From Phanerochaete sordida (lineage: Eukaryota > Basidiomycota > Agaricomycetes > Polyporales > Phanerochaetaceae), in NCBI GenBank assembly GCA_019973155.2, contig BPQB01000013.1, positions 62,001-126,000 on the forward strand: a stretch of DNA of 64,000 nt, given 5' to 3'. The position numbers and the translations under genes were made by a program. Positions 28,948 to 60,033 of this stretch are shown here, piece by piece. Position 1 is the stretch's first letter. Each line of letters opens with the position of its first letter. The notes beneath the pieces are model-generated. The model saw nothing but the letters and a program-made list of their open reading frames with translations. It did not search any database and had not been told where the DNA came from.

Positions 28948-30535
28948 TCAAACAGCAGCTCCCAGCATCTTCGCCCGCTCCGTCAGGCATTTCCTCGCCG
29001 CTAACCAGCTCACCAGCTTGCCTTTCGCTACGATATCTTCCTTCATCTCCTCCCAGAACTCAGGCTCCTCACATATCGTATCCAGGTCTGCAGCAGATAC
29101 GTATCCACGATCGATAAAGACCGGGGCGAGGTGGTCGAGAGGAATGCGTGCAGTGGCGAAGAATGTTTGCAGGTCGGGTGGTACTTCTGGCTTTGAAGAC
29201 GATGCTTCGGTAGCGGGGCCGTCTTCAAATGGAGCTTGCGCAGGTGGTATCGAGAATTCCGGAGTGGAGGAAGTCTTGAGTACGCGAGTTGGAGATGCGA
29301 CAGCAGATACGGGGCTTGCTTCGGGTACCTCGCGACGCTCGTGTCCTGGCATGACCAAGGGACTCTTGAACGGGGCTGGTCGCTTCGAGGCAGCTGGATT
29401 GCCCGCAGGGGGTATATTTGCCTGTACAGGTAGCTGCAGTTCATTCAGCTGCATGAGATGCTGATTTGGTGTCAGCTTAGCGAAGCCCTGCTCCCAGACT
29501 TGAGCGTGCATCTTCTGGATGGATGCTGTCGGGGTCCCCAGATGCTGCGGAGGACGAGTGATTTTGTTCGATTTTGAGCCAGCCTCGGAAGACGGCGTCG
29601 GTCGGTTTGTAGGCTCCGAAGAACTTAAAGGAGCGAACCAGTCGAGGTTCAATTCGACAGCTGGGTGAGACGGTTTGTTTGGGTCGAAGCCTTCAGGTGG
29701 CTCCGATGCGGCAGGGTACATTAAAGTGTCCAGAGCCACGATGGCCTCAGAAACAGTAGTCTTCCGAGTGGCTCTTTCTGATTTGCGAGTGGTCCACTCC
29801 ACCATGCGCGCAAGCTCCTCGCCTTGAAGCCCAGTTTTGACTGTAAATCACAGAGTCAGAAGAGACATCTTCAAACAGTTGAAGATACGCGCCTGCTAAG
29901 TCCGCTATCTCATCTGGAGTGTCCGCAGCCATGTCGAACGCGTCGTCTGAAAAACTGGTGTCAGACGCGGGGGTAAGTAGCACATCTCCGTAGGAATATC
30001 TACCTTGTTCTTCCTCGTCTTGGACGCCACTTTGCTCAAAGCCATCTTCCTCCGCCTCCCAATCGTCTAACCGTAATGTGAGGCCTGAAAACGCGAGAAA
30101 AACGCGAGAAAAACGCTGACCTTCTGCTTCCTCTTCTGCCATCACAGCGTCCTCTGGCCGCTCTCCCTCACATAGTCCTTTCCGCGCATGTTCCTAGGCC
30201 AACAAAATCAGCCCAGTCCCCAAGACGCAGCTCGTCGCATCACACCTGTATCCGCCTTGACGACCCGGCGAACGCCATCGCGCACCGTGGACAGCGCCAG
30301 AGCGCGTCCGCGTCGCGCAGCACGAGGACGCGCTCCTGCTCGCCCAAGAACAGCAGCGTGCACTCGGCCTGGTGCACCTGGCGGTGGTGCTCGCGCAGCG
30401 AGAGGTTCGTGCTCTCGCCGCAGCGCGCGCAGGCGTACCACCTGTGGGTGCGCGGGCGTGAGCCCGAGCGGTGGTGTGCAGTGAGGAGCACGCGACGTAC
30501 TCGTCGGACGGGTCTCTGCTCGTGTCTTTTGGCAT
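28948..30535 (-). CDS. Z1: split zinc-finger / SAM-like family protein
   Basis: First of seven family members here; no named family recognised. Exon 1 encodes MPKDTSRDPSDE, cut by an intron just before finger 1. Finger 1 is WYACARCGESTNLSLREHH plus RQVHQ (C2H2). Finger 2 is LWRCPRCAMAFAGSSRRIQ | EHARKGLC (C2HC), with a phase-0 intron (30194-30245) between its Cys and His/Cys ligands. An acidic, Pro/Ser-rich linker of more than 250 residues follows. The C-terminal module (about 29180-28950) is LQTFFATARIPLDHLAPVF then WEEMKEDIVAKGKLVSWLAA. It looks like a five-helix SAM-like fold (inference). Probably a nuclear nucleic-acid-binding protein. Exon borders in the linker (29800-30120) are uncertain. 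One 36-nt in-frame segment there repeats cgtttttctcg and could be intron or exon. Confidence 0.75.
30194..30245 (-). other. Z1 finger-splitting phase-0 intron
   Basis: GTGTGA...CTAG, 52 nt, between RRIQ and EHARKGLC. The same position and phase recur in all seven family members. Confidence 0.7.
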
Positions 30536-31132
30536 CGGCGGGCGGGTCGAGGGTGGATGGGCCGGGAAGGTGGGAGACTGGGAGTGGACCGAGGGAAGCG
30601 GGGGACGGAGGACGCCACGCAGGTTTAGCGACGCGCTTGCGAGGACCCGTCAAGGGGCCCGTCCGAGCGACGGCCATCTGACCATGATATGTATACGCAG
30701 CGCGGGACACCCGTTTGCCTAAGAAAGACGAGCATGCTCCGTTCTAGGGTGCTGTCTGGATGGGCAGGCCATGCGGACGTGTGCAGTGGAGGAGAAAGGC
30801 AAGCTCGTAACCTCCGAGACGCTGAGGATTGGCAGCGCATGCGGTACCAAAGTTACACTCACTTGTGGCAAGATGCGAATAAATCCAGGGTTCATAATTT
30901 TGGGTACATATAGTAGAATACACAGGATTGTACAAATGAGAAATTATAGGCAATATTGGGCAGTAGAGTCGGAGCGCGAGAATAGCAAATACAGGGAGGC
31001 GAAAGGTGGGAGATGCCACAACAGGGATGGAGAGCAGTCAAGACAGCCACGGCGCATTACTCAGGAAAGCATGATCCAAGAAGACGATAATCAAGAAACG
31101 AAGAAACACCTCAGCTCATCAGGCAACAGCAA
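30536..31132. other. Intergenic Z2-Z1
   Basis: 597 bp between the 3' end of Z2 and the start of Z1. 30860-31010 is notably AT-richer than the neighbourhood. No gene is supported. Confidence 0.45.
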
Positions 31133-32273
31133 CTACTTCTTCTGCAGCAGGTCCGCGCGCAGCCCCAAAGCTCGCTTGACAGCGAGCCAGCCGGCGAGCA
31201 GCCCCTGCGCGAGGATCTCTGCCTTCATGTCCTCCCAGTTGCCCTCTACGGGCATCGTGCAGAGTAGATCAAGCGTTTCCTCGGTGACGATGCCGTGTTT
31301 GACGAAAATCGGGGTGAGGTACTCGAGCGGCACGCGTGCCGTGGCGAAGAAGGCCGCGAGGGCAGGAGGCACGGTCGTATCGGCGGGAGGCACGATGATA
31401 CCGCCTGCCGCGAGCACAGCCCGCGTCTCGGGAGCCGGAGGGACGAGGACCACCAGGGATGGCTGCTGGGGCGTCGTCGAAGGCGGCTTCGTTGGTAACA
31501 TTCGGCCCACGTTACGCAGCGGGGTGTCATCCTCCGTTGACTCTGGTGAGAAGCGAGGTTTCTTGGCGGCCGCCTTTTTCCTGGGGACAGGACTGAACAG
31601 CGGAGCAGCACGTTTGAAGGATTCCTTGCCGGCCGGCTTCGCAGTGACAGAGAGATCTACCTTTTTGACCTTGGCCGTGTCGACGTACTTCACCACGAGC
31701 GGACGATCATCGTCTTCGTCGTCACTGTCATCGCCGCCGCTGTCTAAGATCAATCGTCATAATCAGATACGCTGACGCAAATGAATGCTGTGTCTCACCC
31801 TCTCCTCGCACATTTTTCGAACGCGTCCTCATTGCATCAGTGACCTTAGCCTTGGGCTTCGCCGGTGCCGTCGGCTGTATTGTTATCGTACCCATGTTAT
31901 GTTCGTGTTCCTCGCAATATCCAAGCCGTGCATGATCCTGATTTGATGTCAATGCATAGACAGCCTAGACGGAGGCGAGTCACTGACCTGGATCTTCCTG
32001 CACGAGCCTTCGAACGTCTGCGCGCACTTCGGGCAGCGCCAGAGGCCGTTCGCGCCGCGCATGACCTCCGTTTCCCGCCTCTCGCCCTGAAACTTGAGCA
32101 TACAACGGTACTGGTGCACTCTCTTGATATGTTCGGCAGGCGATATGTCGAGCGTGACGACGCTACCGCAGTGTTTGCAATCGTACCTGCAGCAGGCGTC
32201 AGTGCGCGTTCCTGCGAGTCGCAAAATATGTGGCAGCGCACCTCACGTTCGCGAATGCAGTCAACTTGGGCAT
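31133..32273 (-). CDS. Z2: split zinc-finger / SAM-like family protein
   Basis: Exon 1 is MPKLTAFANVR and ends just before finger 1 (YDCKHCGSVVTLDISPAEH, then KRVHQ). Finger 2 is LWRCPKCAQTFEGSCRKIQ | DHARLGYC, split by a phase-0 intron at 31938-31987. The linker carries basic stretches (PRKKAAAKK; RTRSKNVRG), which may be nuclear-localisation signals, and an acidic run DSGGDDSDDEDDD. The C-terminal module (31351-31136) reads LAAFFATARVPLEYLTPIF, VTEETLDLLC, WEDMKAEILAQGLLAGWLAV, ALGLRADLLQKK. It is the same architecture as Z1 and Z3 in the same orientation, so the three form a head-to-tail tandem array. Function unknown; a nuclear DNA- or RNA-binding role is inferred from the fingers. Confidence 0.8.
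31938..31987 (-). other. Z2 finger-splitting phase-0 intron
   Basis: GTCAGT...TCAG, 50 nt, between RKIQ and DHARLGYC, at the same position as in the other members. Confidence 0.75.
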
Positions 32274-32726
32274 GGTGCAACGTGGTAAGGAGCAAGAGGC
32301 GGGGTTCGTGGCAAGTTCGCCGTCGCAGGGTCACACCCAGCCCCACCTCTCCGCCTCCTCGCTAACCGTAGAAAAACACTAGACCATTTACGGTCATCTC
32401 GAACTGGATGGGCCCGCGACGCAAACGAACCACGCCGTGCGAATGCGTGTTCGACTTCGCCGCGAGACGCTCAGCGGTCATCCACAGCGGAGGAATGGAG
32501 GGATGACTGCGGTTCTCTCCAGTTTCGGAACCAGTGGAAATCCGATAAATAATGTCCGGGTATACACAGAGCAATCAAACCTACGGCAAACAAGAAAGCA
32601 AAGACCATGACAAGCCGTGGCCATAGATCCAAGATGATACAACCGCAACGAACCTGCGATTAGGTCGAGAGTACGAAAGTCAGCCAGATGCGGACAGAAA
32701 GGATTTATTCAACAATACCTCTGACT
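32274..32726. other. Intergenic Z3-Z2
   Basis: 453 bp between tandem genes Z3 and Z2. Nothing recognisable. Confidence 0.45.
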
Positions 32727-34253
32727 TCACCCCATACGTAACAAGAGCGCGCGCTGCTCCAGGCCTTTGTGAACGGCGAGCCATCCGGCAAGACCACCCT
32801 CTCGGAGGATCTCTGCCTTGAGCTCGGTCAATTCGCATGGCGGAGCTTCGCAGAGCAAGTCTAGGGCGTCGTCCGTAGTCATGCGTTGCCTTGTGAAGAT
32901 GGGTGCTAGGTGTTCTGAGGGAATACGGAGTGTGGCAAGAAAAGATCTGAGCGCAGAAGGTATAAATGATTCCGGTGAATGATGATTGTCCGTCACACTG
33001 GTGGCGTGTGCGTGGGATACAGAGGGTATAGATGGTGTGCGTGAAGACGAGGATGCAGCATTTGAGCCTGAGGAATTTGAACCAATCTTGACAGAGCGTG
33101 TCATAGAAGAATTTGAGTGCGAAACGTGTGGGTTCATGCGACGCAAGGACTTCGTGTCGGCGCGTGAAACGTCGTGCGACTGGCTCGAAGGGCCTATGCC
33201 AACCAAATTGGCGGTGGGTCGAAGTACGTCGGTATTGCGGCAGAAAAAATGGTCCTGTTGCTCCTCTTCTTTAACAGACTGTCGTCGCTCCGGAGTAATA
33301 GCGACACACGAGTTATTGCTTACACCATACTGCTCTTCCGATTTCATCGCGGTGGATGTGCCGGGTTGCAACAACTCCCTTTCCCAGCTTGGGGCCGAAT
33401 CCATATCCACTGTAAGCGGCGGTCAGGAGGATGGGTGTAATCAGGAGTCAGATACGAACGTTTGATTTCCACGTCTTGCGTGTCTCGTGCATCCTCCTCC
33501 AGAAGATGCTTTATGAACGCCGCTAGAAGCATTGATATTGAGTCGTCGTGGATTGACACATAGATAAGCAATACCTTCATCGTCCAATTCGTTAATGTAA
33601 TTGCCGAGAATGTCATCGAGAAAGACGACAGTATCACCTGTATCTCAGTTGAACGAACATCAATGATACGTTTTGCAACATGTTAGCTTGCCTGCTGGGG
33701 CTGCTTCACCGTGTTGGACCTCCGGTTCTTCATCGTCTTGGGCCTCTGGTTCTTCATCGTCTTGGGCATCCGGGTCTTCATCGTCTTGAACCTCCGGTTC
33801 TTCTTTCGGAACAATAACCGTTGGTTGTTGCTGCTTATTGTCGTCCTGCTCTGACGGTGGTGCAGGTTGTTCGAGTGGTACAGGCGTATTGACATCCCCG
33901 GGTACAGTAATACATTCGCCCTTGAGGCCGTGCGTCTTCAAGGGCCAGAACCCGGTTGAGCATTTCAACAAGACGCGTCGTGGTTGAAACGCACCTGAAG
34001 CTTCCTCGGCGTGCCCTCGAACTCCATGCCACACCTCGGACATCGCCATAGGCCGTCAAGATCGCGTTGACACGTCACTCGGCCTGGCTGTCCTTTAAAC
34101 TGGACCGTACATTCTTTCTGGTGCACCTTCTTGTGATGCTCTTTCAACGATATGCGCTCCCACTTCCCGCACGTTGCACAAACATACCTGACGACCGCGA
34201 TAAGCAAACCCCCGCGCGGACAGCAGAAGGACGTACTTTGGGCCTTTCGGCAT
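32727..34253 (-). CDS. Z3: split zinc-finger / SAM-like family protein
   Basis: Exon 1 is just MPKGPK. Finger 1 is YVCATCGKWERISLKEHH with KKVHQ. Finger 2 is LWRCPRCGMEFEGTPRKLQ | THGLKGEC, split by the phase-0 intron at 33936-33994. The linker contains an acidic repeat (units like EEPEVQDDEDPDAQ) encoded by about three to four 30-bp direct repeats at 33720-33815. A Ser/Asn-rich stretch follows. The C-terminal module (about 32950-32730) reads LRSFLATLRIPSEHLAPIF, TTDDALDLLC, LTELKAEILREGGLAGWLAV, GLEQRALLLRMG. Middle exon borders are approximate. It is the third member of the head-to-tail array with Z1 and Z2, and divergent from Z4. Confidence 0.77.
33720..33815. repeat. Tandem 30-bp coding repeat in the Z3 linker
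   Basis: Units beginning ggttcttcatcgtcttg recur every 30 bp about three to four times with small changes (gggcctct, gggcatcc, aacctcc). They encode the acidic 10-residue repeat of Z3. Confidence 0.75.
33936..33994 (-). other. Z3 finger-splitting phase-0 intron
   Basis: GTGCGT...GAAG, 59 nt, between RKLQ and THGLKGEC. Confidence 0.7.
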
Positions 34254-34698
34254 GCTGGCTGTAATCGGGGGAGCACGCAACGGAGGAAATAATCCACGTT
34301 GTCGACCGTTGAGTATTTAGGCTGCTAGCTCTTCCCAATATAGGGCGTTCGTTTGAGCCCTTGATGCTTCCCACGGAGTAATTGCGGGGGACTCACAAGG
34401 TCTGCTACTGTGCCGATATCCGTCCAGTGCGAGTGATTTGGGAATGTGCAGACATGCGAAAGACATTGAAGTGGACAATCCAGACGAGTCGAGATGGTGG
34501 TCGTGGGTGAAGAAGTCGCCACTGCGCCCGGTCTCTGGCCTCTAGCCGCATTAGCGCCTGCGCCACGGGAGCCCGACAGACGCCCTGGCTTTGACGCTTT
34601 GGTTCGGCTTGAACTTCACGCAAAATCCAGCGGGTGACCACGACCTCAGGCCTGTCTCGTTCCCACCCAGCCCCCTCCTGTCCCCGCGCTGCTTCACG
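34254..34698. promoter_or_regulatory. Divergent promoter region Z3 / Z4
   Basis: 445 bp between diverging starts of two family members. No TATA box or gene was identified. Confidence 0.5.
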
Positions 34699-36290
34699 AT
34701 GTCAGTACCTCTAGATGCTCTCTGCAAGCCGTATGCGCTCAGTCTTTCCCCTCTTGCTTCAGGACCGACGGCTGGCAGTGCCAGAAGTGTAATGCCCTCA
34801 TAACCGGGACTTCAGTTCGGCACCACTACCGCGCTGTCCATCAAAATTCGTCCTTCATTCGACTGCCTGGTTCTGCAGCAAGGGTCAAGGTTGAGAGGGA
34901 CTCCACATCAGGACGGTTCAAGTGCCCAAGGATTGGCTGTTCCGTCTCTTTGGAGCTAGCACAAGAGCTTCAGGTAAGTTTACACTTGTGGCGACTTAGC
35001 AGATGTGGCAACGAGCAGCCTTTCGGCATAACCTGACAGGTACATTCGCGAAACTGCACAAAGCCGCTTGACGTGTATGAGGACGAAGAAAAGCCTCCTC
35101 AGCGAAAGCGTGCACTGTCGGCTTCCCAAAGCGCGTTTGAGCCTCGCAAAACTGCGAACCGTTCGACGTACGGCCCAGCCTCCGCGTCAGCAAGATACCC
35201 GCCGCGACCCAATCGAGCGAAGGCGACAAAGAACGAGACGTCCATCTCTGCGCGCACCTCCCTCTCGTCACGAACTCTCCGTGTCCACACGTACGCCACT
35301 TCCCCTGTCGTCGATATGGTCGCGTACCTAACGCCCACCCAGAGCACATCTGCCGCAAACCGACCGAACGCAACGAGCACTCATTCGCTATTGCTTCAAG
35401 GGTAAGGAGATGGAAGTCGCTGAGATTGCGCAGTGGGTAGGGGTAGACCGCGATACGGTATGGTCGGTCGTTCGAAACGAGGACGGAGATGATCTCGCGG
35501 AGGATCAAATATACCTCGACGGGAAGAGGGGGCACATCATCAACGTCGATGCTCTGAAGAACATCCGGCCGTTCGTGAAGGGCGAGCCCATGGACGACGA
35601 CCAATGGCTCAGGTACGGCAGCAGTGTCAGTGACGACGAGTACGACTCGGAAGAGGAAATCGAGATGGAATGTGAGCTACGCTATCATCTCTCCTAACTT
35701 TGCATCCATTGAAACTGAGCCTTCAATCAGACATCCGGTCCTCGCCAGTGGCCGCTCCTCGTCGTCACCGTCGTATGTCGACAGGCAGCATCGAGTCCAT
35801 GTCCTCGCTTACTTCTCTAGGGGACGAAGATGCGCCAGGGGATCCGGAGCACATGGTGTGTTCCCCGTCTCTCTCACAGACCTCTTGCTCAAGCTGTTCT
35901 CGACACTAGTTCGAGGAAGTCGAGGAGTCTTCGCCAGGTCCCGAACCCTCGCCAAGCTCCGCTTCGCCGCCCGCCTCGTCGACCGTCTACAGCAACACTG
36001 TCCCACATTCGCCACTAACAACTCGAACGAAAATGGACGGCGCCATTGCGACCTTCGTGCGCGGTCTCGGCGGTGGGCCCTCCGATCAGTTACTGGAGGT
36101 CTTCTGCGACATGGAGATCGACAGCGCGGAGCGGCTAGACTGGCTGTGCCAGCAAGAGGGGGACTACTGGGAGGACGTGAAAGACTACATGCTCCAAAAA
36201 GGCGTGAAGCTCTTTCACTGGCTAGTGGTCAAAAAGGGTCTTCGGGAGCGAGCGGCGGCGTTAGCTGCGTCGTCGGAATTGAAGACGTGA
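34699..36290 (+). CDS. Z4: split zinc-finger / HTH-like / SAM-like family protein
   Basis: Exon 1 is MSVPLDALCK, then a very short intron (34731-34762, 32 nt) and finger 1 (WQCQKCNALITGTSVRHHY, RAVHQ). Finger 2 is FKCPRIGCSVSLELAQELQ | VHSRNC, split by the phase-0 intron at 34974-35039. A basic linker (PPQRKRALSASQ) leads to an extra module shared only with Z7: RALIRYCFKGKEMEVAEIAQ, then WVGVDRDTVWSVVRNEDGDD (about 35380-35520). It resembles a helix-turn-helix. An acidic DEYDSEEEIE motif follows, then the C-terminal module LLEVFCDMEIDSAERLDWLC, YWEDVKDYMLQKG, FHWLVVKKGLRERAAALAA (36085-36270). Likely a DNA-binding nuclear protein. It is convergent with oxidoreductase gene a, 171 bp apart. Confidence 0.8.
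34974..35039 (+). other. Z4 finger-splitting phase-0 intron
   Basis: GTAAGT...ACAG, 66 nt, between AQELQ and VHSRNC. Confidence 0.75.
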
Positions 36291-36461
36291 TTTGGAACAC
36301 ATGGACCCGTATGCCAGGTACTTGTTTATGTGTGCTCTGTTGCTTGTATGCTTCGTCGTTTGCACTTCTCAATGGATATATGCTATGGTATGCCAGACTG
36401 ACAGCCTCGTTGTAGTACTTATACATGTTCTTTAGGTTTATTGAGCAGACACGTCCGAAGC

Positions 36462-37766
36462 TCATTCGTCCGCAATCTTGATCAAAATCTTGCCCGCCAG
36501 CTTGCCTCCGGGTGTTGTAAGCTCCGCATGCGCCTCGCGCACGCCCTCTGCGCTGAATGGCACGACCCGCTCGATGCGAACCTTGAATAGTCCGCTTCTG
36601 ACCACATCCCAGAGCTCCTTCGCATAATGGTCCGTCTCCTCGGGCTTGACGATGTAGTTAGGCATGCTCGGACGGACGAGCTTGAGGTTCTTTGCCGAGA
36701 GCTTCAGCGGCGACACGGGGTCCGGTGGGCCTGACGCATTACCGACGCAGACGAGCGTGCCCTTGCGGCGGAGCATCTCGAAGTTGCTCAGGAACCTGGC
36801 CCATGCATGAGTCCACGACCCATACAGAGATCTCGAGCAGCTCACGTGTCTTTGCCAACGCCGTCGAATATTGCGTGCACACCCTCACCGTTCGTCAGCT
36901 CGAGAGTGCGCTGCACAGTGTTTTCCTTCGTGTAGAGGATAACGTGGTCTGCGCCGTACGACTTAGCAATCTCAGCCTTCTCAGGCGACGAGGTGGTGCC
37001 GATGACGGTTGCGCCCCGGGATTTGGCGTAGGCTGCGAACAGCAGTCCGAGGCCACCAGCGACCGTGTGGATAAAGATCGTGTCGCCTTTCTGGACATCG
37101 TATGCTTCCGTCATCAGCGTAATGACGGTAAGGCCTGTATGTGTGGAGTGAGAGAGGATTGAGGTTGTGAGCGGGCAGCAACATGCCTTGGCAGAGTACA
37201 GCGGACGCCACATCGAGGGAAACCTCATCCGGGACTGGGATGACATGGACCCAGTCGTTCGAGATATATTCCGCGTGGGCACCGCGGTCTCCCTACGCGG
37301 AAGGTAGCCTTCAATTTTAGCAATCACGAAATCCACATATTCGAAAGACACACGACGGCTACGCGCTGCCCGATCTTGTATCCTCGCGCCTTATAGTGCG
37401 GGTCATCGAGCACCTTAGGGTCTGTGGGAAGCGCGACGACTGTCCCAGAGCCTTCGGTGCCCAGAACGTATGGGAAGGATGTGACGGGGTAGAGGCCCTT
37501 CCTGAGGACGTGTCAGCACTGTACAACACGCCAGTCACGTTCAACAAGCCCGCTTACCGCATGTAGGTATCGACCGTGTTCACCCCACCATAGTTGATCT
37601 GTAGAAAGTGCGTCAGGTTTTTGTGGGTCATTCAGACGTCCGAATTTACCTTGATCACGATCTCGTTGGGTTGTTGCTTGGGAAATGGCAAAGTCTTCTT
37701 CTCCAGGACCTCGGGTCCACCTTGTCTGTCAAATGCTATGGCATGAATTGTGCTCGGAAACGACAT
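36462..37766 (-). CDS. Zeta-crystallin-type quinone oxidoreductase a
   Basis: An NADPH-dependent quinone oxidoreductase of the zinc-free medium-chain dehydrogenase/reductase superfamily, probably cytosolic. The start MSFPSTIHAIAFDRQGGPEV and LEKKTLPFPKQQPNEIV is typical. The middle exon has YDVQKGDTIFIHTVAGGLGL and AAYAKSRGATVIGTTSSPEK (Rossmann nucleotide-binding motif), then GADHVILYTKENTVQRTLEL and AIFDGVGKDT. The last exon reads LRRKGTLVCVGNASGPPDPV, LKLSAKNLKLVRPSMPNYIV, and GGKLAGKILIKIADE. No structural zinc cysteines are seen. A TATAAAAG element on the minus strand at 37836-37843 sits about 70 bp upstream of the ATG. It is first of three tandem paralogues; its 3' end faces Z4. Confidence 0.9.
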
Positions 37767-38157
37767 TCTCTGGTTCTACACTGCAGTTGGACGAAGGTCA
37801 GCGAGGTTCGTGGATGTCGTGAAATTAGCCCCGGCCTTTTATACGTTCCTGGCGGCGCGAGAGTGATAGCGATTGCGCAACCACCCTCTCGGTATGTCAG
37901 CTGATCGTTCTCAGCTGCCCGGAACGGCCCAGGGTGACTAATCGCATTGCACTCGTCACTAAATGAGCAAGGACGGGTACACGGTCGCAGAGGGAGAACT
38001 TCCGCTTGGCAGCAAGTCCGGAGGCAACTCCTCGCGCGCAGCTGAGACGCATGACGCGACGTGTCTGATCCGTCTTCTTCATGCTCAAAAGCTTGAACAA
38101 CTACGAAATCTGGGTCTGTCGGCCCAGACTGTTCTAATTCCAACAGTAGTACATAGT
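37767..38157. other. Intergenic, oxidoreductases b-a, with TATA box
   Basis: 391 bp. Holds TATAAAAG (minus strand, 37836-37843) for gene a. Nothing else recognised. Confidence 0.5.
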
Positions 38158-39452
38158 TCACTCATCGGCGATCTTCATGAGTATCTTCCCCGTAACCTTC
38201 CCGCCAGGCGTCGTGAGATCGTCTTGCGCCTCGCGCGCACCTTCTGTCGTAAACGGATACACACCGCAAATGCGGACATTGAACAGGCCGCTCGTCACGG
38301 CGCCCCAGAGCTGGTCCGCGTAGTAATCTGTTTCCTCGGGAGTGACGAGGTAGTTAGGCAAGCTCGGACGCAAGAGCTTCAGATTTTTGGCCGACAGCTT
38401 GAGCGGCGACAAGGGGTCCGGCACGCCTGACGCGTTACCGACGAGTACGAGCGTGCCCTTGCGACGCAGCATCTCGAAGTCGCCTTCGAAACTAGCTCGC
38501 GTGTCAGGGGCAGTCGCGAGAGCGGGAAAACGCACGTACGTGTCCTTGCCTACGCCGTCGAAGACCGCGTGCACACCTTCGCCGTTCGTGAGCTCAAGGG
38601 TTCGTTGCACGACGTTCTCCTTCGTATACAAAAGAACGTGATCGGCGCCATAATTCCTGGCAATCTGGGCTTTCTCGCTAGTCGACGTGCTACCGATGAC
38701 GATCGCGCCTCGCGCCTTTGCGTACGCGGTGAATAGAAGTCCAAGGCCCCCTGCAACAGTGTGAACAAAGAGGGTGTCGCCTTTCTGTACATTGTACGCT
38801 TCTGTCATTTGTGTAATAACAGTAAGACCTACAAAAATGTTGTCAGGGGTGTCGCCATGAGAAGAAAGATGCTGTAAATGTACCTTGTACTAGCACGGCT
38901 GCCGCAATCTCCAACGAGACCTCATCCGGGATGGGGAAAACATGCACCCAGCTGTGCGAGACGTATTCTGCATGCGTGCCGAGATCAAGCTGCGCGAAAC
39001 AGAAGTTCAGTCACCTAGGTACTGTCTCCTAAACTGAACATGTACCAGAGCAACGCGCTGGCCGATTTTGTACCCTCGCGCTTGGTACCGCTCGTCGGCG
39101 AGGACGGCCACGCTGGTGGGTAGCGCAACGATTGTCCCAGACGCTTCATTCCCCAAGACTTGGGGAAAGGACTTGAGGGGATAGGTACCCTTTCTGAGGA
39201 CACCTCAGTCACCTCTACTCGGTGGTCGTAGTCAGCGTTCGTACCGGAAGTAGGCATCAATGGTGTTCACTCCAGCATAGGTGACCTGTTTGGAACTTGT
39301 CAACTCCCTTCAAGATGCGATTTGGCATGTCATACCTTGACTACTACCTGGTCAGGTTTCTGCTCGGGAAACGGCAAGGTCATCTTCTCGATGACATCCA
39401 AACCGCCATGCCGGGCGATGGCGATAGCTTGAACAGAGCTTGGGAGTGACAT
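38158..39452 (-). CDS. Zeta-crystallin-type quinone oxidoreductase b
   Basis: Paralogue of gene a in the same orientation. The start MSLPSSVQAIAIARHGGLDV and the following MTLPFPEQKPDQVVVKV match the family N-terminus. The middle exon has YNVQKGDTLFVHTVAGGLGL, FTAYAKARGAIVIGSTSTSE, GADHVLLYTKENVVQRTLEL and AVFDGVGKDTYV. The last exon has LRRKGTLVLVGNASGVPDPL, LKLSAKNLKLLRPSLPNYLV and GGKVTGKILMKIADE. Several short introns lie at positions similar to gene a. A TATATAAGG on the minus strand (39549-39557) lies about 100 bp upstream of the ATG. The nucleotide-binding glycines are intact. Confidence 0.9.
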
Positions 39453-39887
39453 GCTCTGCTGACCTGTGTGCTGCAGGTGGGAGTTGAGTGTAGGGGAGGT
39501 GGCTGGACACAATACAAGTAGCTCCTCTGCATGTCATATGCATCTAGACCTTATATACGGTCCCAAAGACATGCGAACAATAGCGAACGGTCAACCCGCC
39601 TTCTCGTGAGACGCGCGTGATCGTCCTGCACCTTTTCTAGGATATACCAATTCATTTTGTTGTCTTGGGACAAGTGAATGATGACCCGTGGGGCTGCGTG
39701 CAGAGGCAGCAGAGCAGCAAACACTCCTGAAGAGATGACATGGTGGTCAGGTCCAAGTTCGAATTGGCGCTCCTTTGCGCTCGCGTCTGGCCATGGCACG
39801 CGTCTCGCGCATCGCGTTCAAAGCACAACGTTCTGCATATTTCACTTGTACATGTGTCATTCCTTTATCTCCTTCGCGAACCCGGTT
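39453..39887. other. Intergenic, oxidoreductases c-b, with TATA-like element
   Basis: 435 bp. Minus-strand TATATAAGG at 39549-39557 serves gene b. No gene is supported. Confidence 0.45.
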
Positions 39888-41240
39888 CTAGAACTCATCC
39901 GCAATCTTGATGATCAGCTTCCCCGCGATCCTCCCGCCAGGCGTGGTAAGCTCCTTCTGCGCTTTGCGCGCGCCCTCCGTCGAGAACGCGAATACGCCCT
40001 CGATGCGCAGCTGGAAGAGCCCGCCCTCGATCGCCTCCCAGAGCTCTTTGATGTAGTGGTCTGCCTCTTCGGGCGTGACAATGTAGTTCGCCATGCTGTA
40101 CACGTCGTGAGTTCCCATGTCATGACCTGGAGAACAGAGTGGACCCGCCTTGGCCGGACAAGCTTGAGGTTCTTCGCAGAGAGCTTCAGCGGCGAGATGG
40201 GCTCGACTGGGCCTGACGCATTTCCGACGTTCACAAGCGTACCCTTACGGCGGACAAGGTCGAAGTTCGCCATGAAGCTAACCCTCCAGTCAGTGCACAC
40301 TCGCCAACAACATGTACATAGCATTGGACTCACGTATCCTTCCCGACGCCGTCATACACCGCATGCACGCCCCTGCCGCTCGTGAGCTGGAGCACACGCG
40401 CCACCGTATTCTCCTTCGGGTAGAGGATGACGTGGTCTGCGCCGAAGCTCTTCGCAATTTCCGCCTTGTCGGCCGAGCTCGTCGTGCCAATGACGGTCGC
40501 GCCGCGCGCCTTCGCGTACGCGGTGAACAGTAGCCCAAGCCCACCTGCGACGGTGTGCACAAGGATCGTGTCGCCCTTCTGCACGTTGTACGACTCCGTC
40601 ATCTGCGTGATGCACGTCAAGCCTGGCGCGACGTCAGCTGGATGGCATGGCAAGCATGAGGGCGGGAGCACCTTGCAGAAGCGCAGCGGCTGCTGCGGCG
40701 AGATCGATGCCGTCGGGAACAGGGAAGGTGTGCACCCAGTTGCTCGCGACGTACTCGGCGTGCGCGCCGAGGCCATACTTTGTCGCGACGCGTCAGAACC
40801 TGAAACAGACAGCAGAACTTTGGAGCGTACGATTCCGACTCGCTGGCCGACGTAGTACCCGCGGGCCTTAAACCGCGGGTCGTTCAGCACCTTTGGGTCT
40901 GTGGGGAGCGCAACGATGTAGCCGGCAGCCTCATTCCCGAGGACCTGAGGGAAGGACTTGATAGGATACAGACCCTTTCTAGACGCGACTCAGAGGATGG
41001 ATGCGTGTGGATCGTGCAAGCGTGCCCACCGGAAGTAGGTGTCAATGGTGTTCACGCCGCCGTAGACTACCTACAATGGACTGCTGTCAAGTATTTTCAA
41101 CCCGAGAAAACTGCAATACGTACCTTGACGATGAACTGGCCAGGGCCCTGCTGAGGGAACGGCACAGTCTGCCTCTCGACCACCTCGAGATCACCGGTCT
41201 TCGAGATAGCAATCGCCTGTATTTCCTTGGGGAACTCCAT
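39888..41240 (-). CDS. Zeta-crystallin-type quinone oxidoreductase c
   Basis: Third tandem paralogue. The start MEFPKEIQAIAISKTGDLEV and RQTVPFPQQGPGQFIVKV is recognisable. Core exons give AAGYIVALPTDPKVLNDPRF and KARGYYVGQRVGIV, YNVQKGDTILVHTVAGGLGL, FTAYAKARGATVIGTTSSAD, GADHVILYPKENTVARVLQL, AVYDGVGKDT, then NFDLVRRKGTLVNVGNASGP, LKLSAKNLKLVRP, YIVTPEEADHYIKELWEAIE and GGRIAGKLIIKIADEF. One extra intron falls near the PNYIV position (about 40100-40155), where genes a and b read through. It is more diverged than a and b, but all cofactor residues are kept. Confidence 0.88.
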
Positions 41241-48959: not shown

Positions 48960-49740
48960 GGCGCGGGGCGGGTGTGTGTAGCGCGAGTAGGGTGGGTGCG
49001 GAGTTTAGCGTGTGCGGATCAGCAGTGTCGGGTGGACGAGCAGCTGGCGTGGTGATGCGGGCGAGGTGTGGCGGGTGTTGGCGAGTGCCCGGGTAGTGGA
49101 CTGGGTGCGCTTTGCACTGATGCTCTCCAGGGCCCGCCAGCCATCTCTTATACGCTTTGCTTGCACCCCGCTGCGCCCGCGTCCTCGGGCGCCCTCGACA
49201 GAGCAGAGGGCCCCCAAGGACGCGCATACAAGGGGACTGCCGTTCTCGGATGAAGGACGCTGATGGGCGGCCTGCGTCTAGTCTGCATCGGGCACAAGGA
49301 GCGTGCACGGATTGGCGTGGCGACGCGTTCCCACTGCGCTCCCGGCGGCATGTGCAGGTCACGGGCTTCGCGAGTACAAGGTCATTCCAGAATCGAGGAC
49401 ATACGGGATGGCATAGGCGGCATAGGGGGGCATAGGTCATCACAGATAGCGGGCGCGCCGCCATCGCGGGAAGATCTACGAGCAGTTTCTATAGTGCGCA
49501 GAAAGTCCGTGAGGCGAGGGATGCGGGGCTGCCTAAATATGATAGTGTCAGGACAGGATGATGCAAATGGTACAGCGTGCAAGTACTAGTAGCTATAAGA
49601 GTACGGTATTCCGGGCAGTGAGAAGAACAACGAGCATGAAGCGACCAAGTGTACGTGCAGAGTGCGACAACATGAAGACACCACGAGAACCACAAAGTGA
49701 GTACGAGAGAGAAAGCGTGCAGGGCGGTGTGTGCGGAGCG
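48960..49740. other. Intergenic, TBC gene-small protein
   Basis: 781 bp. No gene is supported. Frames here are short, overlap on both strands and share no motifs. Confidence 0.45.
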
Positions 49741-52105
49741 CTATAGGAGCGCAGAGCCGTCTTTGCCTTCTTTCACAAGACGTTTCCATTCTTGTCTCCA
49801 GGCTTGCATCTGGGCTCGCAGCTTCTTGTCAGAGACGACCTTTTCTATCCAGAACAGAAGGGCATTTTCGTCTTCGGGGACGAAGAACGACGACAGTAAT
49901 GAGAGGACGCTTTCGAAGTTAGCTGAACTTGACGTTATGTGGTCTGGTAGAGCAGTCAGTCTTGCAGTAGGCAGCCACTATGCCTCAGAAGACTCACCTC
50001 GGTACACCCATACTATTGCTACTGCCACGATAACGAAGATGTCGTGACCCTCCAGAAGGAACGCGTCCCACAACCTCAGCTGCGACTGGAACGGCACAGA
50101 GTTGGCGAACAGGGTGATGTACCACTTCGTCGCATAGGACGTGGTTGAGATCATGTGCTTCTTGAAGGCCGCGTACACGTCGGGCATCATCTGCTCCGTG
50201 ATTCGCTCCTGAACGTAGATCGCCTCAAGCAGGCCAGGGAACCCAGGGCTGAAGATGTCGTGCATCGAGTACGCATCGTGTATGCGCACGAGCGACGCGT
50301 ACACACGTTCCGGGTCGAAGTAGCACAGGAGCGTCGCGGCGATGGGGCCCATGCCCTGGCAGTACCCGCACGTCTCGCAGCGCAGCGACAGGCAGTGCAG
50401 CACATGGAACAGCGATCGTTGCCTGCGTGGGGATCAGCCAAGCGGGCGGCACCTGGGGGCACGGGCGACGTACCCTTGCCCGTAGCGTGTGCGGAACATG
50501 ATGTTCCCGCTGATCGTGCGCGGGACGTCGAGGTCGATCTGCACGTCGTACGTCGACGGCTGGTCGAGCGCCTCGCGGTACTCCTCTGCGAGTCGCCGGA
50601 GCTCCCGCCGGCCGGACTTGGTGAACCTGTTCATGAGCACCTCCCAGGCGGCGCTCCGCCAGCAGTCAGGGATGCCCTTGAATGTCCGTTCCCTGAGTTT
50701 CGGCTCCTTGCTCGGCTTGATGCTCCAGACCTCGACGTTGCCCCCTTCGTCCCGAACATCAGCGACAAGCATCCGTTGCCATTTTGCCGTTCTCGAGAGT
50801 TCCTTGACAGGCGGCTGGGTTGGGGGCTGTGAGCGTAGCAGCGGCGCGCTCGGCGAGCAGGAAGTGGTCGGGGTGGAGACGCGGGCGAGCGGCTTCGCTA
50901 ATGGCGCTGCGGGCAGCAGAATGAGCCTGTCATGGGACGGGGTCACGAAAAACCCGTAGCTAGACGAAAATGAGGATAGACAGCGCAGAGTATTGTGGAA
51001 GGACTGACCGGTCAAGACTTGACAGCAGCTGTACCTCCTGCGGTGTGAGTTCCCGCGTCTTCTCTGTGCCGTCGCCCAACGCCTCCTCTGCCCTGAGCTC
51101 GCTCTGTCTGCTGCCTCCGACTCGTGCCCGCGTCCGCTCGACGCCCTCCTCGACCCCATCACCTTTGACGCCGATCATGTCGAGCTGAGCATAGGTGCTG
51201 CGAACGTGGAAGGCGTCCGCATCCTCGCCCTCAGACCGCACGAGCGACAGCTGGCTGTGTTTGCTTTCCGGCGTGCTTGCGTTCGAAGGCCGCCTGGGTG
51301 AGGAGGCGGGCGTAGACGGCACTGCGAGCAGGGGCGAATGCAGGTGTTCGGCGTTAGGCAGAGGGCCAGATGACAACGGCGGGGTAGAATAGGGTGACGG
51401 AGATCGCCCGCTCCCGTTCGCGTGGCCGTTCGATTGTGGGGCTTGTGGCGGACGCTGCTGAGAGCGTGAGCTGGAACTGGCGTGGCTCACAGGACGGCTG
51501 CCTGGTCTGCTCGCACTGGCGGGCCTGTTTCGGGTAGGCGCGCTTGCGCCCGCGGCGTCGCTCGACGTCGAGGGTGCATCGCCGAGGCGCGGGCTCTCAG
51601 ACAGGCTGTTCATGCGCGTGCCCGTGCCGGTGGTCGACGTGCGGGCGTAGCTTGAGGGCGGGCGGCTGTCGGTGTACGCGAGCTGCATAGAGTCGTCAGA
51701 GGTGTCGGAGAAACGATTCTCGTGGGGATTGAGGAGCTTGCTGGGGGGACGGATCGCGTCGTACGTTGCATCGTAGTACCCGCTGTCCTCTGCGGGGCGG
51801 CCGTGGGCGGGGATGTACGGGTCGCGGGCGTCGGAGACGGCGACGGCGACGGCGGCGTCGAGGTCCTTAGAAGGGTGACGGCGGTGGGGGTCGGAGGTAG
51901 ACCAGCTTTCCTCCTCCTCTTCGTACATGGAATAAATGGTGACTATGGTAGTTTCGGATGAGCTGCGGTCTCTATCAATCGCAGACGGGGCGAGCTCTGG
52001 CAAGGATGATCCCGAGACGGTGGTGTTCGTCGAGAGGGGTGACGGCTGGAGGCTTCTGATGGGCTGGGGCGTGGGCGGAATGAGTATTAGAGACGGTGGG
52101 TCCAT
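49741..52105 (-). CDS. TBC-domain Rab GTPase-activating protein
   Basis: Stimulates GTP hydrolysis by Rab GTPases in vesicle traffic. The N-terminal 380 or so residues (MDPPSLILIPPTPQPIRSLQ onward) are disordered, rich in Ser/Pro/Arg with SRP-type repeats and an EEEEES acidic run. A linker with VKELSRTAKWQRMLVADVRD follows. The TBC domain begins FKGIPDCWRSAAWEVLMNRF, carries the arginine-finger motif IDLDVPRTISGN (I-x-x-D-x-x-R), the glutamine-finger motif GYCQGMGPIAATLLCYF, then MMPDVYAAFKKHMISTTSYA, and FANSVPFQSQLRLWDAFLLE with the G-HDIFVIVAVAIV helix. Both catalytic fingers are intact. The start at 52105 is the first ATG before the Pro-rich region. It resembles the yeast Gyp family; the Rab target cannot be told. 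Confidence 0.9.
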
Positions 52106-53333
52106 GAAGGCGGCCGGTCGCAGATGAAGGCCTGAAGCAAGGAGTGTACGATAAAAGAAAGGAGTGGACGGGAGGACACTTGTCGGGAACTCGGCAGCAG
52201 ACAATTGACCGCGGTAGCGCAGGACAAGCACCGCCTGACTGCGACGACCACAACGTTGAGGCGCATCAGACCCCGCTCTTCACTGTATCTAATTACCCTG
52301 TGATACAATCACTCGCAGCTATCACATCCTCGTGTTTCACGACGTTCTCTGCAGCGAAGACAGCGTAAAAACGCGTTTTTACTAGGGAAGCGCAGGCCAC
52401 GCGCAGGGTGTGAAAATACTCGCTAGTCCCACTCCAAGGGTCTTGTGACTACTGCCTCATGTAAATGAAAGGCAGTAGGCAGTGCTCCACGTCAGCACAG
52501 AACGGTCGCTGCGAAGGGCGGTGTGCCGTCGTGGGAAGCTTTCTTGATAGCCTCCTGCCTCGCATCGTCTCGGACATGACATAGCGAGAGAACGAAGCAC
52601 AGCGGCGCAGCAGATGATGGGAAGACGAGCTCCACCCTATATCTCAGGAGTCTGTGCCCGTGTACGTCGACCCGAGCCTCGGGTAGTAGTTGACGAGCTG
52701 ATTTCACCCCGACGCTGCCAACGCCCATGTCGGCCTCCGGTGGCGGACTGGACTGGCTGATGTGAGCTGGCGGGCGCCGCAGTCCGTGCTGATGACACTG
52801 CTTGTGGCACCCAATCACTCTCACCCCGCCCCGGGCTCCTGCAGCCCGACGCAATGCATTGCTTTGAATTCTACAACGGGAGGTTGCGTTGGACTTCCGC
52901 GTGCTGCTCGTAGGGGTTGTCGTCTTGCCAAGGAGAGTCCAGTTCTCAATCCGAGCAATGATTTGGGCGTGTGAATTCCCGCTGTCAGGCAAATTCTGTC
53001 CACGCCGCATCTGCAGGCAGCATGCATGCGACATTGCTCGAAAGCTGCTCAGCGCTCAGGAAATACACTCGACTGTGATCATTTCTGCGAATGCCCGCCG
53101 CAGTTGGATGCCCCGCCAAGGGCTCGAGCCTCGGAGGCATCGAATCTGAATCGACATGCGTCGATCCGTCTCGGCGCTCCATACACGTGGCCGCCACAAA
53201 GTCTGGGGCAACTGTCCCACGCGCACTGCGCAGCGTCTGCCTCCGCCCGCCCGCCGCTGTCCTCCGCCAGATCTAAGATAGGAAACTCGTCGGCCATCCT
53301 CCGCTGCTCTCCAATATTCTTGAGCTTGGAGCT
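52106..53333. other. Intergenic with an 18-bp palindrome
   Basis: 1.2 kb between diverging TBC and Z5 genes. It contains the perfect palindrome gtaaaaacg-cgtttttac at 52365-52382. An open frame of 180 codons on the minus strand (52492-53034) has no domain and atypical composition, so it is not called. Confidence 0.5.
52365..52382. promoter_or_regulatory. Perfect 18-bp palindrome containing ACGCGT
   Basis: GTAAAAACGCGTTTTTAC, a self-complementary site whose core ACGCGT equals the fungal MBF-type cell-cycle box. It lies 260 bp upstream of the TBC gene start and about 950 bp upstream of Z5. A binding role is inferred only. Confidence 0.4.
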
Positions 53334-54310
53334 ATGACAGGCATGGCCCATGCTGCGTATGAGTGCAAGCAATGCGATGCCAAGTTCTTCTCCAAAGAGG
53401 CGAAGAACGAGCACAGGAAGATCGCCCATGGCGTTGAGAGCTGCACGTTCACATGGGAGAACGGCATCACCCTCACGATGAAGCGCCCACCAAACCAACG
53501 CAAGGTGTGGCCATGCCCCTGGTGCGGCGCGTTGTTCAAGGGCACCTCGTCGCGACGGCTCAAAGTGAGTGAGGTGCCGTCGAGGACCGCCGTCGCCTGG
53601 ATGCTGACCCCGTCCTTCGTCAGGAGCATTGGATTCTGGCGGGCCACGGAAAACCTCTTGAGGGCGAGGCAAGTAGTACGGGAGTGAAGAGCGAGTCTGA
53701 TTCTGGTGCGATGCTTATATGCTCCATGGTGGGCGATCTCTAAGGCTGAACCATGTGTGCCGCATAGATGACGACGGCGAGCCTGAGATTGTATGCACGG
53801 GCATGAAGAGCAGAAGCGAGAAGCTCGAGGAGCGTGCGATTGAGCAGGCTCTAGGTGCGTCAACCCAGCTTTCCGATCCATAACATCGAAAGTGGCATTC
53901 ATCCTGATCAACCGCCAACAGCCGAAGACGGCATGGACGTCGATGTTAACGCCGCCAAAGTACCCGCCGCGGAAGAGTCACAGAATCCCATACAGCCGGA
54001 GATTCCCATTCATCAGGTGGATCCATGCCCTACAGTCGCATCTCAGCCCATTCCGCCTGCCCTAAAGGCGTTCTTGGACTCCACTCGCGTGTCGATGTAC
54101 CATACCGCGGACATCTACGTCAAGTACCAGTTCACCTCGGACGCAACTCTGGACTGGGCTGCGGGGATCGAGCGAACCGACCGCGGCTTTGCCGAGATTA
54201 AACAGGAGCTTATCAGCCGAGGAAAGTTAATTGCCTGGTTTGCCTTCGACGAGGCGTTGAACAGGCGAGCGATCGCCAAAGGTATCACGGTTAGGAAGAT
54301 TACTCGTTGA
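53334..54310 (+). CDS. Z5: split zinc-finger / SAM-like family protein
   Basis: There is no intron before finger 1, unlike Z1-Z4. The start MTGMAHAAYECKQC continues DAKFFSKEAKNEHRKIAHG (C2H2). Finger 2 is WPCPWCGALFKGTSSRRLK | EHWILAGH, split by the phase-0 intron at 53565-53623; its last ligand is His rather than Cys. A short linker (SSTGVKSESDS, then DDGEPEIVCTGMKSRSEKLE) crosses two more introns to MDVDVNAAKVPAAEESQNP. The C-terminal module is LKAFLDSTRVSMYHTADIYV, FTSDATLDWAAG, RGFAEIKQELISRGKLIAWF and AFDEALNRRAIAK. It is the shortest member (about 240 residues). It is convergent with oxidoreductase gene d, 198 bp apart, repeating the Z4/gene a arrangement. Confidence 0.8.
53565..53623 (+). 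other. Z5 finger-splitting phase-0 intron
   Basis: GTGAGT...TCAG, 59 nt, between SSRRLK and EHWILAGH. Confidence 0.75.
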
Positions 54311-54508
54311 CCTCAGACAATGTCACAAGATGTCTCTACATAATGTGCAATTCTAACCCCTGGTCGTTGCTAGAGTATATGCGGCTCTGGTGCTTGGAAA
54401 TCTATCCCCATTTTCTTTACTGTACAACATTGTATACCATGCCGTCATTCCATGTGCTTTGGTTTTTTTGCCTAGCTTTCTTGTTTGTTATGTACCCCGG
54501 AATTCTGC

Positions 54509-55858
54509 CTACTCCTCAGAAATCCGAATCAGTAATTTGCCAGTGACGCTGCTCCCTGGCGTATTGATCTCCTGCTGCGCCTCGCGGGCGCCTTCGGCGG
54601 TGAAGGGGAAGACGCGGTGCACCTTGATCTTGAAGAGCCCGCTCCGGAGAGCTTCCCACATCTCACCAAGATAGTGATCCGCCTCCTCCGGAGTCACAAT
54701 ATAATTGAACATGCTACCGAAGGAAGTATGAGCCCGCAGAATCATTGAAATACGCAGCGTCCCACCTCGGGCGAACGAGCTTCAGGTTCTTCGCCGAGAG
54801 CTTGAGTGGCGAGACCGGGTCTGGCGCGCCCGACGCATTGCCGATCGCGACGAGCGTGCCCTTCCGGCGGAGCATCTCGAAGTCCGAGAGGAACCTGCAC
54901 GGCAAGCACATCAGCTCTCTGCCCGCCGTATACCAGGACGCGCCAACCCACGTGTCCTTGCCGACGCCGTCGAAGACAGCGTGCACGCCCTCGCCGCCCG
55001 TGAGCTCGAGCACGCGCTGCACCGTGTCCTCCTGCGTATAGAGCACGACGTGGTCCGCGCCCGCCGCCCGCGCGAGCGCCGCCTTCGCGGGTGTGCTCGT
55101 CGTGCCGATGACCGTCGCGCCGCGCGACTTTGCGTATGCGAGGAACGCGAGGCCCAGCCCGCCTGCGATCGTGTGGACGAGGATGACGTCGCCTTTGTTG
55201 ACGTGGTAGGACTCGGTCATCGTCGTGAGCGCGGTGAGACCTGGAAGGGCATACATGCGTGAGCAACGAGTGACTGGCATGGGAGACGCGCATACAGTGA
55301 GAAATGCACGACGACGCGATGTCGAGCGGGATGTAGTCGGGTACAGGGTACACTGACTTCCATGGGTAGGACACGTATTCTGCGAACGCGCCCAGCGCGT
55401 TCTAATGAAGAACATGATTAACATATTGTACGGTAGCGCGTCTGGAAGAGCACGTACCAATGCGACCCTTCCGCCGACCTTGTAGCCGCGCTTCTTGAAC
55501 GCTGGGTCGTTGAGCACCTTCTCGTCTGTCGGCAGCTTGACGATCGTGCCTGAGCCCTCAGTACCGAGGATCAGGGGAAACTTCTTCGCAGGGTACAACC
55601 CCTTGCTGAAGACAGCTGAGCAGCAGAAGGAACTGTCGTCACATCCACTCTCACCGGAAGTAGGTGTCAATCGTGTTCACTCCACCCCAGACGACCTGAT
55701 AGCCGTGAGCAAAGGACTTGGGCTGCGAGGATATTACTCACTTTCACTATGATATCTTCCGGACCTCGTTCGGGAAACGGAAGGCTGATCTTCTGCACGA
55801 CCTCTGGGCCGCCATGCGCGGATATAGTGATCGCTTGGACGGTCTCAGGCAGCGACAT
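54509..55858 (-). CDS. Zeta-crystallin-type quinone oxidoreductase d
   Basis: Fourth paralogue, 13 kb from the tandem trio. The start is MSLPETVQAITISAHGGPEV, then KISLPFPERGPEDIIVKV. Core: YPAKKFPLILGTEGSGTIVK, LPTDEKVLNDPAFKKRGYKV, YHVNKGDVILVHTIAGGLGL, AFLAYAKSRGATVIGTTSTP, GADHVVLYTQEDTVQRVLEL, AVFDGVGKDTW, then LRRKGTLVAIGNASGAPDPV, LKLSAKNLKLVRP, and YIVTPEEADHYLGEMWEALR with the end GSSVTGKLLIRISEE. Like gene c it has an intron just before the YIVTPEEADHY exon, so c and d may be the closest pair. The nucleotide-binding motif is complete. Its 3' end faces Z5. Confidence 0.9.
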
Positions 55859-56486
55859 GGTTGACTGAAGTGGACTGTGGGTGGTAGTATTGGTTAGTGG
55901 CGCAACCCCTTTTATCCCTACGGAGTTCCCGTCCCTGGTCTACGGTGACCGGCGATCTTGGGACCCCTTAACGCACGTACACATGATTCCAGCTGAGTAA
56001 TCGTTGAATCTATGCGAGTAGCGGGCGCACACGGTTCCCTGGCCGGGGCTGAATGAAGCGCGGTGTTGCACGGACGATGACTACTTACGAAGCTCAGGCA
56101 GGCAATCGTGACACAGTAGCGCACACGCACCTCATCGCACGAACGCCCCTGGGATGCCGTGGAACCGTAGCCGACAGCAACACGAAGTCGGCATGAGGCA
56201 GACACAGCCTGACGATTATGAAGATCAAGCTGTCAAATTCGCCTGCGAGACTCGCAGATGCCGCGTATTTTGTACCTGCACGTCGAGCACGAGTGAGTAG
56301 CGCGCCGCAGACCACATAGGAGGTTCCTAGGCATGGGGAGGGGCACACGGCAGAGAGCTGCAAGCTGCTGCAAGGCGACGTCGGGCACAAGTCTGACGCA
56401 CGTGTTGGCGCCCATGAAATTCGAAGGAAGCGCGGCGGAGGCACATCTTCGGCACTCTCACCTCTCTCCTCCAACTTTCCTCCAAC
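55859..56486. promoter_or_regulatory. Divergent promoter region oxidoreductase d / Z7
   Basis: 628 bp between diverging starts. A minus-strand GATAAAAG at about 55907-55914 is the only TATA-like element for gene d. No gene was seen. Confidence 0.45.
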
Positions 56487-58022
56487 ATGTCTAAGTACCG
56501 CCCACCCGCCCTCTCCATCATGTCCCTTGAGGCTCTCGAGCAGGTCTATGTGAAGAACAAAGGCTCCTCGAAGAGGTATGTTTGGTTTGAACAGCAACGA
56601 CTGCAGTACTCAAAGCGCGCCGTTTTGCAGGAGGTACAACGGCCTGCCATACCCATGTTCACTGTGCAAAACGGACGTCTCGGGCCTGTCTCCTAACGAA
56701 CATTATCGGATAGTGCACCAAAACAAGGTGTCTATACGCTTTGGAGACGAGAAGCGGGAGTACGAGATCAAGCGGTCCCGGTCCAACAGCCTGTTCGAGT
56801 GCCCGCGGTGTGATCAGCTCTTCGAACACCCCAGGCATGTGCAGGTGCGGACGTCTGTTTACATACATTGCAGAGGTCGTGCTGATCATCTGACAGAACC
56901 ATGCCGCGGGATGGCGCGGAGCCTGCCCTATAAGCAGCACCAGCGTCGACCCGCCTGTCAAGCAGTCGCGCTCGTCCACCTCTGCACTCAACACCCCACA
57001 AACGAGGCGCACGCGGCGGCCAAGAGGCGAAACGACTCCACGGACACCCCAAGGCCGCACACCGAAGAGCGTTGCGCGACCGCTGAAGACACCAACGCGA
57101 ACACGGTGCGTACCGCCCCTTTCAGACATGAGAGTCGCGTTCTCACTGCGCATGGCCACGCAGAACCGGCATACCCAACATCTCGCGGACGTTCCGCGCC
57201 GTGATCCGCCAGTGCTACAACCAATGCACTATGAACAACAAGGAGATCGCGGAGTACTGCGGCTGCGACGTGCGTGACGTGTATTTCGCTATCAACAACG
57301 AGTCTGGGGACAACCTGGACGAAGACAAGGCCTATCTCGATGGGTCACTCGGAGACATCGTCAACATTGACAACGTGGACGAGAGCATGCTCCAGTCGGC
57401 CTATCATGTGGAGGAGAAGCTGGACGAGGACGAGGATGCCATGGGCGAGACGGACGCGGAAGAGGAGGTCCCTCAGACGAATAGGAACGACCCCCGGCTG
57501 AAAGCGTACCCCACACCAGAGAGCGACCCGGCATACGACCCCTCGTATGACTCTGAAGAGGAGATTGAGCGGATGCTCAGCGCTATGGATGTGGATACCC
57601 CCTCAGACGAGGAAATGCACGACGTGAGTACATTAGCCACCCTACCTGATTCATGGCTGATGTCGGAACAGGAGGGTGCTATATATGCCGGCAAGAGCTC
57701 TCACGACGTATTCATGTCAGAACCCGCACCGCTAGCGCCTCGGCATCATGCGCCTCTCTTTCAGGTTCCTCCACCTGACCCGATCCGCGCATTCTTCTCG
57801 TCGCTGCCAAAGTCCACGCCCGAAGAGGTCGATAAGATGACGGTGGTCTTCAAGGTGTACGGCGTCGAGAACGCGGACGACCTTGACATGCTCTCGCAAA
57901 TGGAGGGGTGCTGGCATGAGGTGGAGAGCTACGTCTGCGGCCGGGGACTGACGCGAGGTCAGTGGCTCCGGATCTGTGACGCGCTGCGGGTGCGGCGGAC
58001 GATGGTGCTCGGAACGCGGTGA
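56487..58022 (+). CDS. Z7: split zinc-finger / HTH-like / SAM-like family protein
   Basis: Exon 1 encodes MSKYRPPALSIMSLEALEQV and ends before finger 1 (LPYPCSLCKTDVSGLSPNEH, YRIVHQ). Finger 2 is LFECPRCDQLFEHPRHVQ | NHAAGWRGAC, split by the phase-0 intron at 56845-56896. A basic, Thr/Pro/Arg-rich linker (TRRTRRPRGETT) leads to the module shared with Z4: FRAVIRQCYNQCTMNNKEIA, EYCGCDVRDVYFAINNESGD, NLDEDKAYLDGSLGD (about 57200-57360), which resembles a helix-turn-helix. The acidic YDSEEEIERML motif follows. The C-terminal module reads IRAFFSSLPKSTPEEVDKMT, VENADDLDMLS, and CWHEVESYVCGRGLTRGQWL. The HTH exon frame stays open from 57201 to the stop, with one possible intron near 57622-57672. Confidence 0.8.
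56845..56896 (+). other. Z7 finger-splitting phase-0 intron
   Basis: GTGCGG...ACAG, 52 nt, between RHVQ and NHAAGWRGAC. Confidence 0.75.
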
Positions 58023-58330
58023 CATCTTTCGCCGCACTTCATTTTTGAGCGGGATTTATTTTGATTGAGCTCAGGAGCAGGATACGTGTCCGCAGTCTCG
58101 GCTGTGGGCCTCTTGTATGCTCATTGACAACCTATGCTATCTCACTGTAACGTACTCGCGGAATCTCCAGCATATATTCTCGAGCGCTTCAAGCGCGACG
58201 CGACGAAGGTGTGGGAAAGGTCAGTCGCGAGTCCAATAAGATGCTCGCGGAGATCCTACATGGATCAAAACAGGACAGCTCAGGGACTGTCACCCTTGAC
58301 CACGCCCTCCACCACTGACTCCCCCCAACA
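58023..58330. other. Intergenic Z7-Z6
   Basis: 308 bp; must hold the 3' end of Z7 and the promoter of Z6. No TATA box or other motif was seen. Confidence 0.45.
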
Positions 58331-60033
58331 ATGTCCAAACGACCAAGAGAGCACGGCGCAGACGCGTTGCCGCCTCCCAAGAAGAACCCGGCGCGTCGAA
58401 CTAAGCAAAACGAAGTCATCTTCTTGGACGGCATCAAGCTCATCGCCACGAAGAGCAGCACAGGCGAATATTGGCTTTGTCCGCGGAGCGGATGCACGCA
58501 GCAGTTTAGTCAGAGGGAGGGCGGCTTCAAGGACCTCGAGGTATGACGCGCTTGGGTCTCGCATTGTGCATGGTATCTTAACCCTACCCAGAAACACGCA
58601 CAGTCCGGAGCATGTATCCCTGCTGAGGGCTTCATTGTTGTACCAGGGCACGTCGAAGGCACAAGCTTGCTCCGGACATTTAAGCCACGGAGCCAAGGTC
58701 CTACCAGTGCCTTCAGAAGTCATGTTCAGTTTTGGTCACGGGGATCTCAAGACAGACCGTCGGGCTCGTCTGGCGGAGCCACGGCGCAGACGGGTGAGGG
58801 AGGACAGGGGGGCGGTATTGGTGCGTGGAAGGCATGCGCTTATCAGAGACTGCAGGGAGATTAACATCCGTGGCAGACGGAACCCAAAGCGCCACGGGGG
58901 TAGAAGTCTCAGATTCTAGCGCAAATGTCGCGTCCACTTCACAGCCTGTCCTTCACGGCACACCATTGGGATCTGTTACAGAGGTGCAATCCAGCAGCGA
59001 CCCTTCTTTATCACGCGAATTCCGCAGCTTAAGCGTAGCGGACGAAGCAGCGCTACCCACGCGACCCCAAACCCTCGCAGACGTCACGCAGGCCATCGCA
59101 AGGCGGCCCACCAGCCCACCCCAGGTTCAGCGCCCCGTCCTCCCCACCCGCACACCCACAGCGGACGCACCACGCGCGCCCGGCGCGAGCGCGCGCTCGC
59201 CGTCCGTCGCGCAGCTCCAGTACCCGCTCACGCCCGCGTCGATGTGCGACGGCTCCGCGCGCGGCGACTCGCCCGACAGCGACATCGAGGAGCTCGCGCC
59301 GGAGGTCGCGAGGACGATCGCGTGGGCGAAGCCCGCCGCGCGCGCGTCGAGCTACTCGCGCCAGTCGCTCAGCTACCTCTCGCCGCCTCCGCGCCCGGCG
59401 CCGCCGCGCGTGTCGGCGGAGGCTGAGCCGCCTGCGCCCGTGCTACCTGTCTCTGGGGCGTCCAGACCGGCGACAGACGCGTCTGAGCAGCCTGCACCGC
59501 CTGCGCCCGTGCCTCCTTTACCTGAGCTGCCTGCCCCAGAACGGCCCAGTGTTATGACAGCCCTACCTAAGGAGCCCGCGCCGCCTGTGCCGCCCATATC
59601 TGCGCCGCCTGTCCTACCCGCCCCCGCGTCACTCGATCCCGCACCCCCTGCACTCCCACCACCCGCGCAGCTCGCGTTGCCCGCGCCCGCGCCGCCAGTC
59701 GTCCCTGTGCCCGTACCGCCCGCAGCACCAGCGCCCGCGGCGCTCCCCGACGCGCTGCGCGCCGCACCGCTCACGCGGGCCGTGAAGGCCTTCCTCGCGA
59801 CGCTGCACGTGCTGCCGGGCGTGGACCTGCCCGCGGTCGGCGCGTGGATCGAGGAGACGGGGTGCACCTCGGACGAGGCCCTCGACACGCTGGCGAGCAT
59901 GCGCGAGGCCGCGTTCAAGGAGGACTTCGACGCGCCGCTGCGCCGTGAGTTCGGTGTTCGGGGGCATATGGTCACCCAGGTGGTGAGGGAGGGGCTGGCC
60001 TTGCGGAGCCAGCAGCGAGGCTTGGCGATGTAG
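58331..60033 (+). CDS. Z6: single-finger, long-linker family protein
   Basis: The start MSKRPREHGADALPPPKKNP is basic, with a likely nuclear-localisation signal (PPPKKNPARRTK). The usual finger 1 is absent. Finger 2 is YWLCPRSGCTQQFSQREGGF-KDLE | KHAQSGAC, split by the phase-0 intron at 58541-58591. The linker is the longest of the family, about 350 residues. It starts Ser/Thr-rich and then becomes Pro/Ala/Val-rich (repeats such as PAPPVPPIS, 59430-59760). The C-terminal module is diverged but recognisable: VKAFLATLHVLPGVDLPAVG, EETGCTSDEALDTL, FKEDFDAPLRREFGVRGHMV, GLALRSQQRG. Exon borders between 58700 and 58850 are uncertain. It appears to be a derived member that lost one finger. Confidence 0.72.
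58541..58591 (+). other. Z6 finger-splitting phase-0 intron
   Basis: GTATGA...CCAG, 51 nt, between KDLE and KHAQSGAC. Confidence 0.75.

Follow-up and report, generated by a model that had tools for sequence, protein, structure and literature searches.

Seven neighbouring genes in a 64,000-nucleotide stretch of Phanerochaete sordida DNA (contig BPQB01000013.1, positions 62,001 to 126,000; here called the window) raise the question of whether they encode one protein family and, if so, what its members might do. The original prediction had described a shared plan of a two-finger N-terminal head, a variable linker and a C-terminal module (C-module) resembling a SAM domain, with no named family to match. 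Our analysis confirms this shared-plan family, to which an eighth gene farther along the same contig also belongs. It is a real, uncharacterised family of the Polyporales in which known kinds of modules, namely zinc fingers, a helix-turn-helix (HTH) in one branch and a SAM-like C-module, occur in a combination absent from the libraries and paper listings searched.

Common plan and zinc-finger head

Leave-one-out profile E-values, calculated per member and separately for head and C-module, support the common plan in all seven genes, as listed below (E for head, then C-module).

28948..30535, minus strand: member gene, exact 6-exon match to protein P0008; E 1e-26, 1.2e-23
31133..32273, minus strand: member gene, splice sites flanking the head, linker exons provisional; E 5.9e-22, 1.8e-24
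32727..34253, minus strand: member gene, splice sites flanking the head, linker exons provisional; E 1.5e-22, 6e-20
34699..36290, plus strand: member gene; E 2.3e-12, 5.4e-16
35343..35562, plus strand: part within the span of the preceding gene
53334..54310, plus strand: member gene, exact 4-exon match to P0009 at 53343-54307; E 1.5e-8, 3.1e-13
56487..58022, plus strand: member gene, exact 5-exon match to P0001; E 2.3e-18, 5.7e-8
58331..60033, plus strand: member gene, splice model, weakest of the seven; E 1.7e-4, 2.6e-3

Four deposited proteins of P. sordida YK-624 (PsYK624_055820, PsYK624_055850, PsYK624_055950 and PsYK624_055970) map exactly onto the window, on contig C13 of our numbering. 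No deposited protein was retrieved for 31133..32273 or 32727..34253, and P0010 covers just 35410-36287 of the gene at 34699..36290, so that the fingers there are predicted from the splice model. This gene has relatives in P0011 (P. carnosa), P0012, P0013, P0014 and P0015, and P0002 of Phlebiopsis gigantea has an architecture identical to that of P0001. The P. sordida gene set comes from BRAKER2 prediction with manual curation, in an announcement that does not mention transcript data (PMC8530024).

The two-finger head held up as part of the plan, with the ligands of finger 1 intact in six of the seven heads and those of finger 2 in all seven. Zinc-finger profile scores of the heads in the Pfam search of window pieces were weak, and the C2H2 profile PF00096 did not reach its cut-off of 25.2. 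Pfam searches of ten window pieces and 13 proteins returned no OrsD (PF12013), a family considered for its paired fingers, at E <= 1; a genome search with its profile gave one sub-cut-off match, outside the cluster.

The C-terminal module

Both predicted models of the C-module contain five helices, in agreement with the SAM fold, a compact five-helix bundle whose last helix is long. The best 16 rows of the structure comparison were all SAM or SAM-like, whereas Foldseek alone gave no significant match. No C-module matched a Pfam family (0/7 at E <= 5), although divergent SAM domains can escape profiles, and a genome search with SAM_2 (PF07647) found other loci and none of the family's C-modules. 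The predicted fold favours the SAM-like assignment that had been proposed; the profile evidence does not.

Many of the structural matches are signalling SAMs (Eph, Sans, ANKS4B), besides chromatin SAMs, and together with the weak finger scores this would suit cytoplasmic signalling adaptors with protein-binding fingers. Given the conserved finger ligands and the HTH of one branch, we think this improbable. Regulation after transcription, with fingers and SAM contacting RNA, must also be weighed. Zinc-finger pairs can bind RNA, as do some SAM domains, those of Smaug and Vts1 for example. RNA is also named among SAM partners in PMC4844672. However, helices 2-4 are net acidic in 13 of 14 C-modules, and an HTH, a fold that mostly serves DNA binding, is retained in two of the members as well as in their relatives; an RNA-directed role therefore appears unlikely.

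Helix-turn-helix segment and genomic distribution

57164..57383, plus strand: HTH segment of the P0001 gene

This segment is supported by predicted helices, matches to solved HTHs and conservation in P. gigantea P0002 (56 of 70 residues, 80% identity). Residues 181-210 of P0001 form predicted helices at pLDDT 87-90, and the segment agrees with an HTH, a fold with a three-helix core that includes a recognition helix. The fold resembles the HTHs of Tn3 resolvase, CENP-B and IstA and weakly matches HTH_23 and HTH_Tnp_ISL3, as might be expected if the family were a mobile-element remnant or domesticated piece with zinc fingers and a transposase-type HTH but no catalytic domain. We give this origin a low probability: the genes are intron-rich, the architecture is identical in further genera, and the genome holds one cluster and one far copy on the same contig rather than dispersed copies. 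A catalytic domain was not found in the Pfam results described above.

The far copy, the eighth member, lies on the minus strand outside the window (G000:C13:276300-277420; L046, L064). It has a finger-2-like exon, an intron at the shared place and a SAM-like C-module that lacks the charge polarity of the others.

Proposed role and known systems

The proteins look suited to putative DNA binding at one end and mutual association at the other, and their putative mode of action most likely resembles that of DNA-binding factors that oligomerise through a SAM domain. LEAFY, a plant pioneer transcription factor, carries its SAM oligomerisation domain at the N end, in contrast to the C-terminal module here, and has its own DNA-binding domain and no zinc fingers. 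We found no sequence similarity to it, and its DNA-binding domain was absent from the same Pfam results at E <= 1. The Polycomb proteins Polyhomeotic/PHC, Scm and Sfmbt share a C-terminal SAM and a zinc finger, and the SAM domains of Scm, Sfmbt and PHC3 are among the best 16 structural rows. However, their FCS fingers and MBT repeats were not seen in the P. sordida family, and neither Pfam nor PDB gave a significant sequence match. The fungal SAM proteins Ste50, Ste11 and Vts1 have the SAM fold in common with it, but Pfam SAM_2 detects other loci.

No named family covering all members was found, no Pfam family exceeds its cut-off, and the combination of zinc finger, HTH and SAM was not found in the family libraries and paper listings searched. 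Tests for LEAFY, OrsD and Pfam families over their cut-offs were all negative. The observation in the original prediction is confirmed, and its interpretation is supported in part.

Charge polarity was observed in 13 of 14 C-modules; SAM domains that polymerise head to tail do so through complementary ML and EH faces. It is possible, if rather doubtful, that a Polyporales lineage evolved a locus of at least eight zinc-finger proteins with polymerising SAM domains, whose paralogues form mixed head-to-tail hetero-polymers for combinatorial chromatin binding, Polycomb- or LEAFY-like yet of independent origin. Polymerising SAM domains would make the family a fungal equivalent of plant and animal SAM-driven chromatin regulators. 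White-rot proteins so far called hypothetical or uncharacterised in databases gain a testable architecture, and P. sordida transformants exist (PMC8530024).

The wider genome search also gave a possible, very distant C-module ending a 193-aa frame (L068; C160:19170-19385, minus strand; E 0.004 and 0.18), perhaps a sign that P. sordida has a broader SAM-like family. Weak matches at C46:35526 (E 0.006; a string of some resemblance that lacks the ligand spacing), C142 (0.10; an ordinary zinc-finger string), C11 (0.14), C2:480197 (0.45), C129 (0.03), C57 (0.89) and C46:198297 (0.055) were rejected on reading by eye, none of them resembling a member.

Upstream of the cluster, window positions 6121-6825 hold a C-5 cytosine DNA methyltransferase exon (PF00145, E 9.7e-7). 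Between the cluster genes, at 36462-40989 and 54509-55939, open frames read by eye give about four NADPH:quinone-reductase-like copies; the one profile-tested, at 38161-38889, matched ADH_zinc_N (E 2.3e-21).
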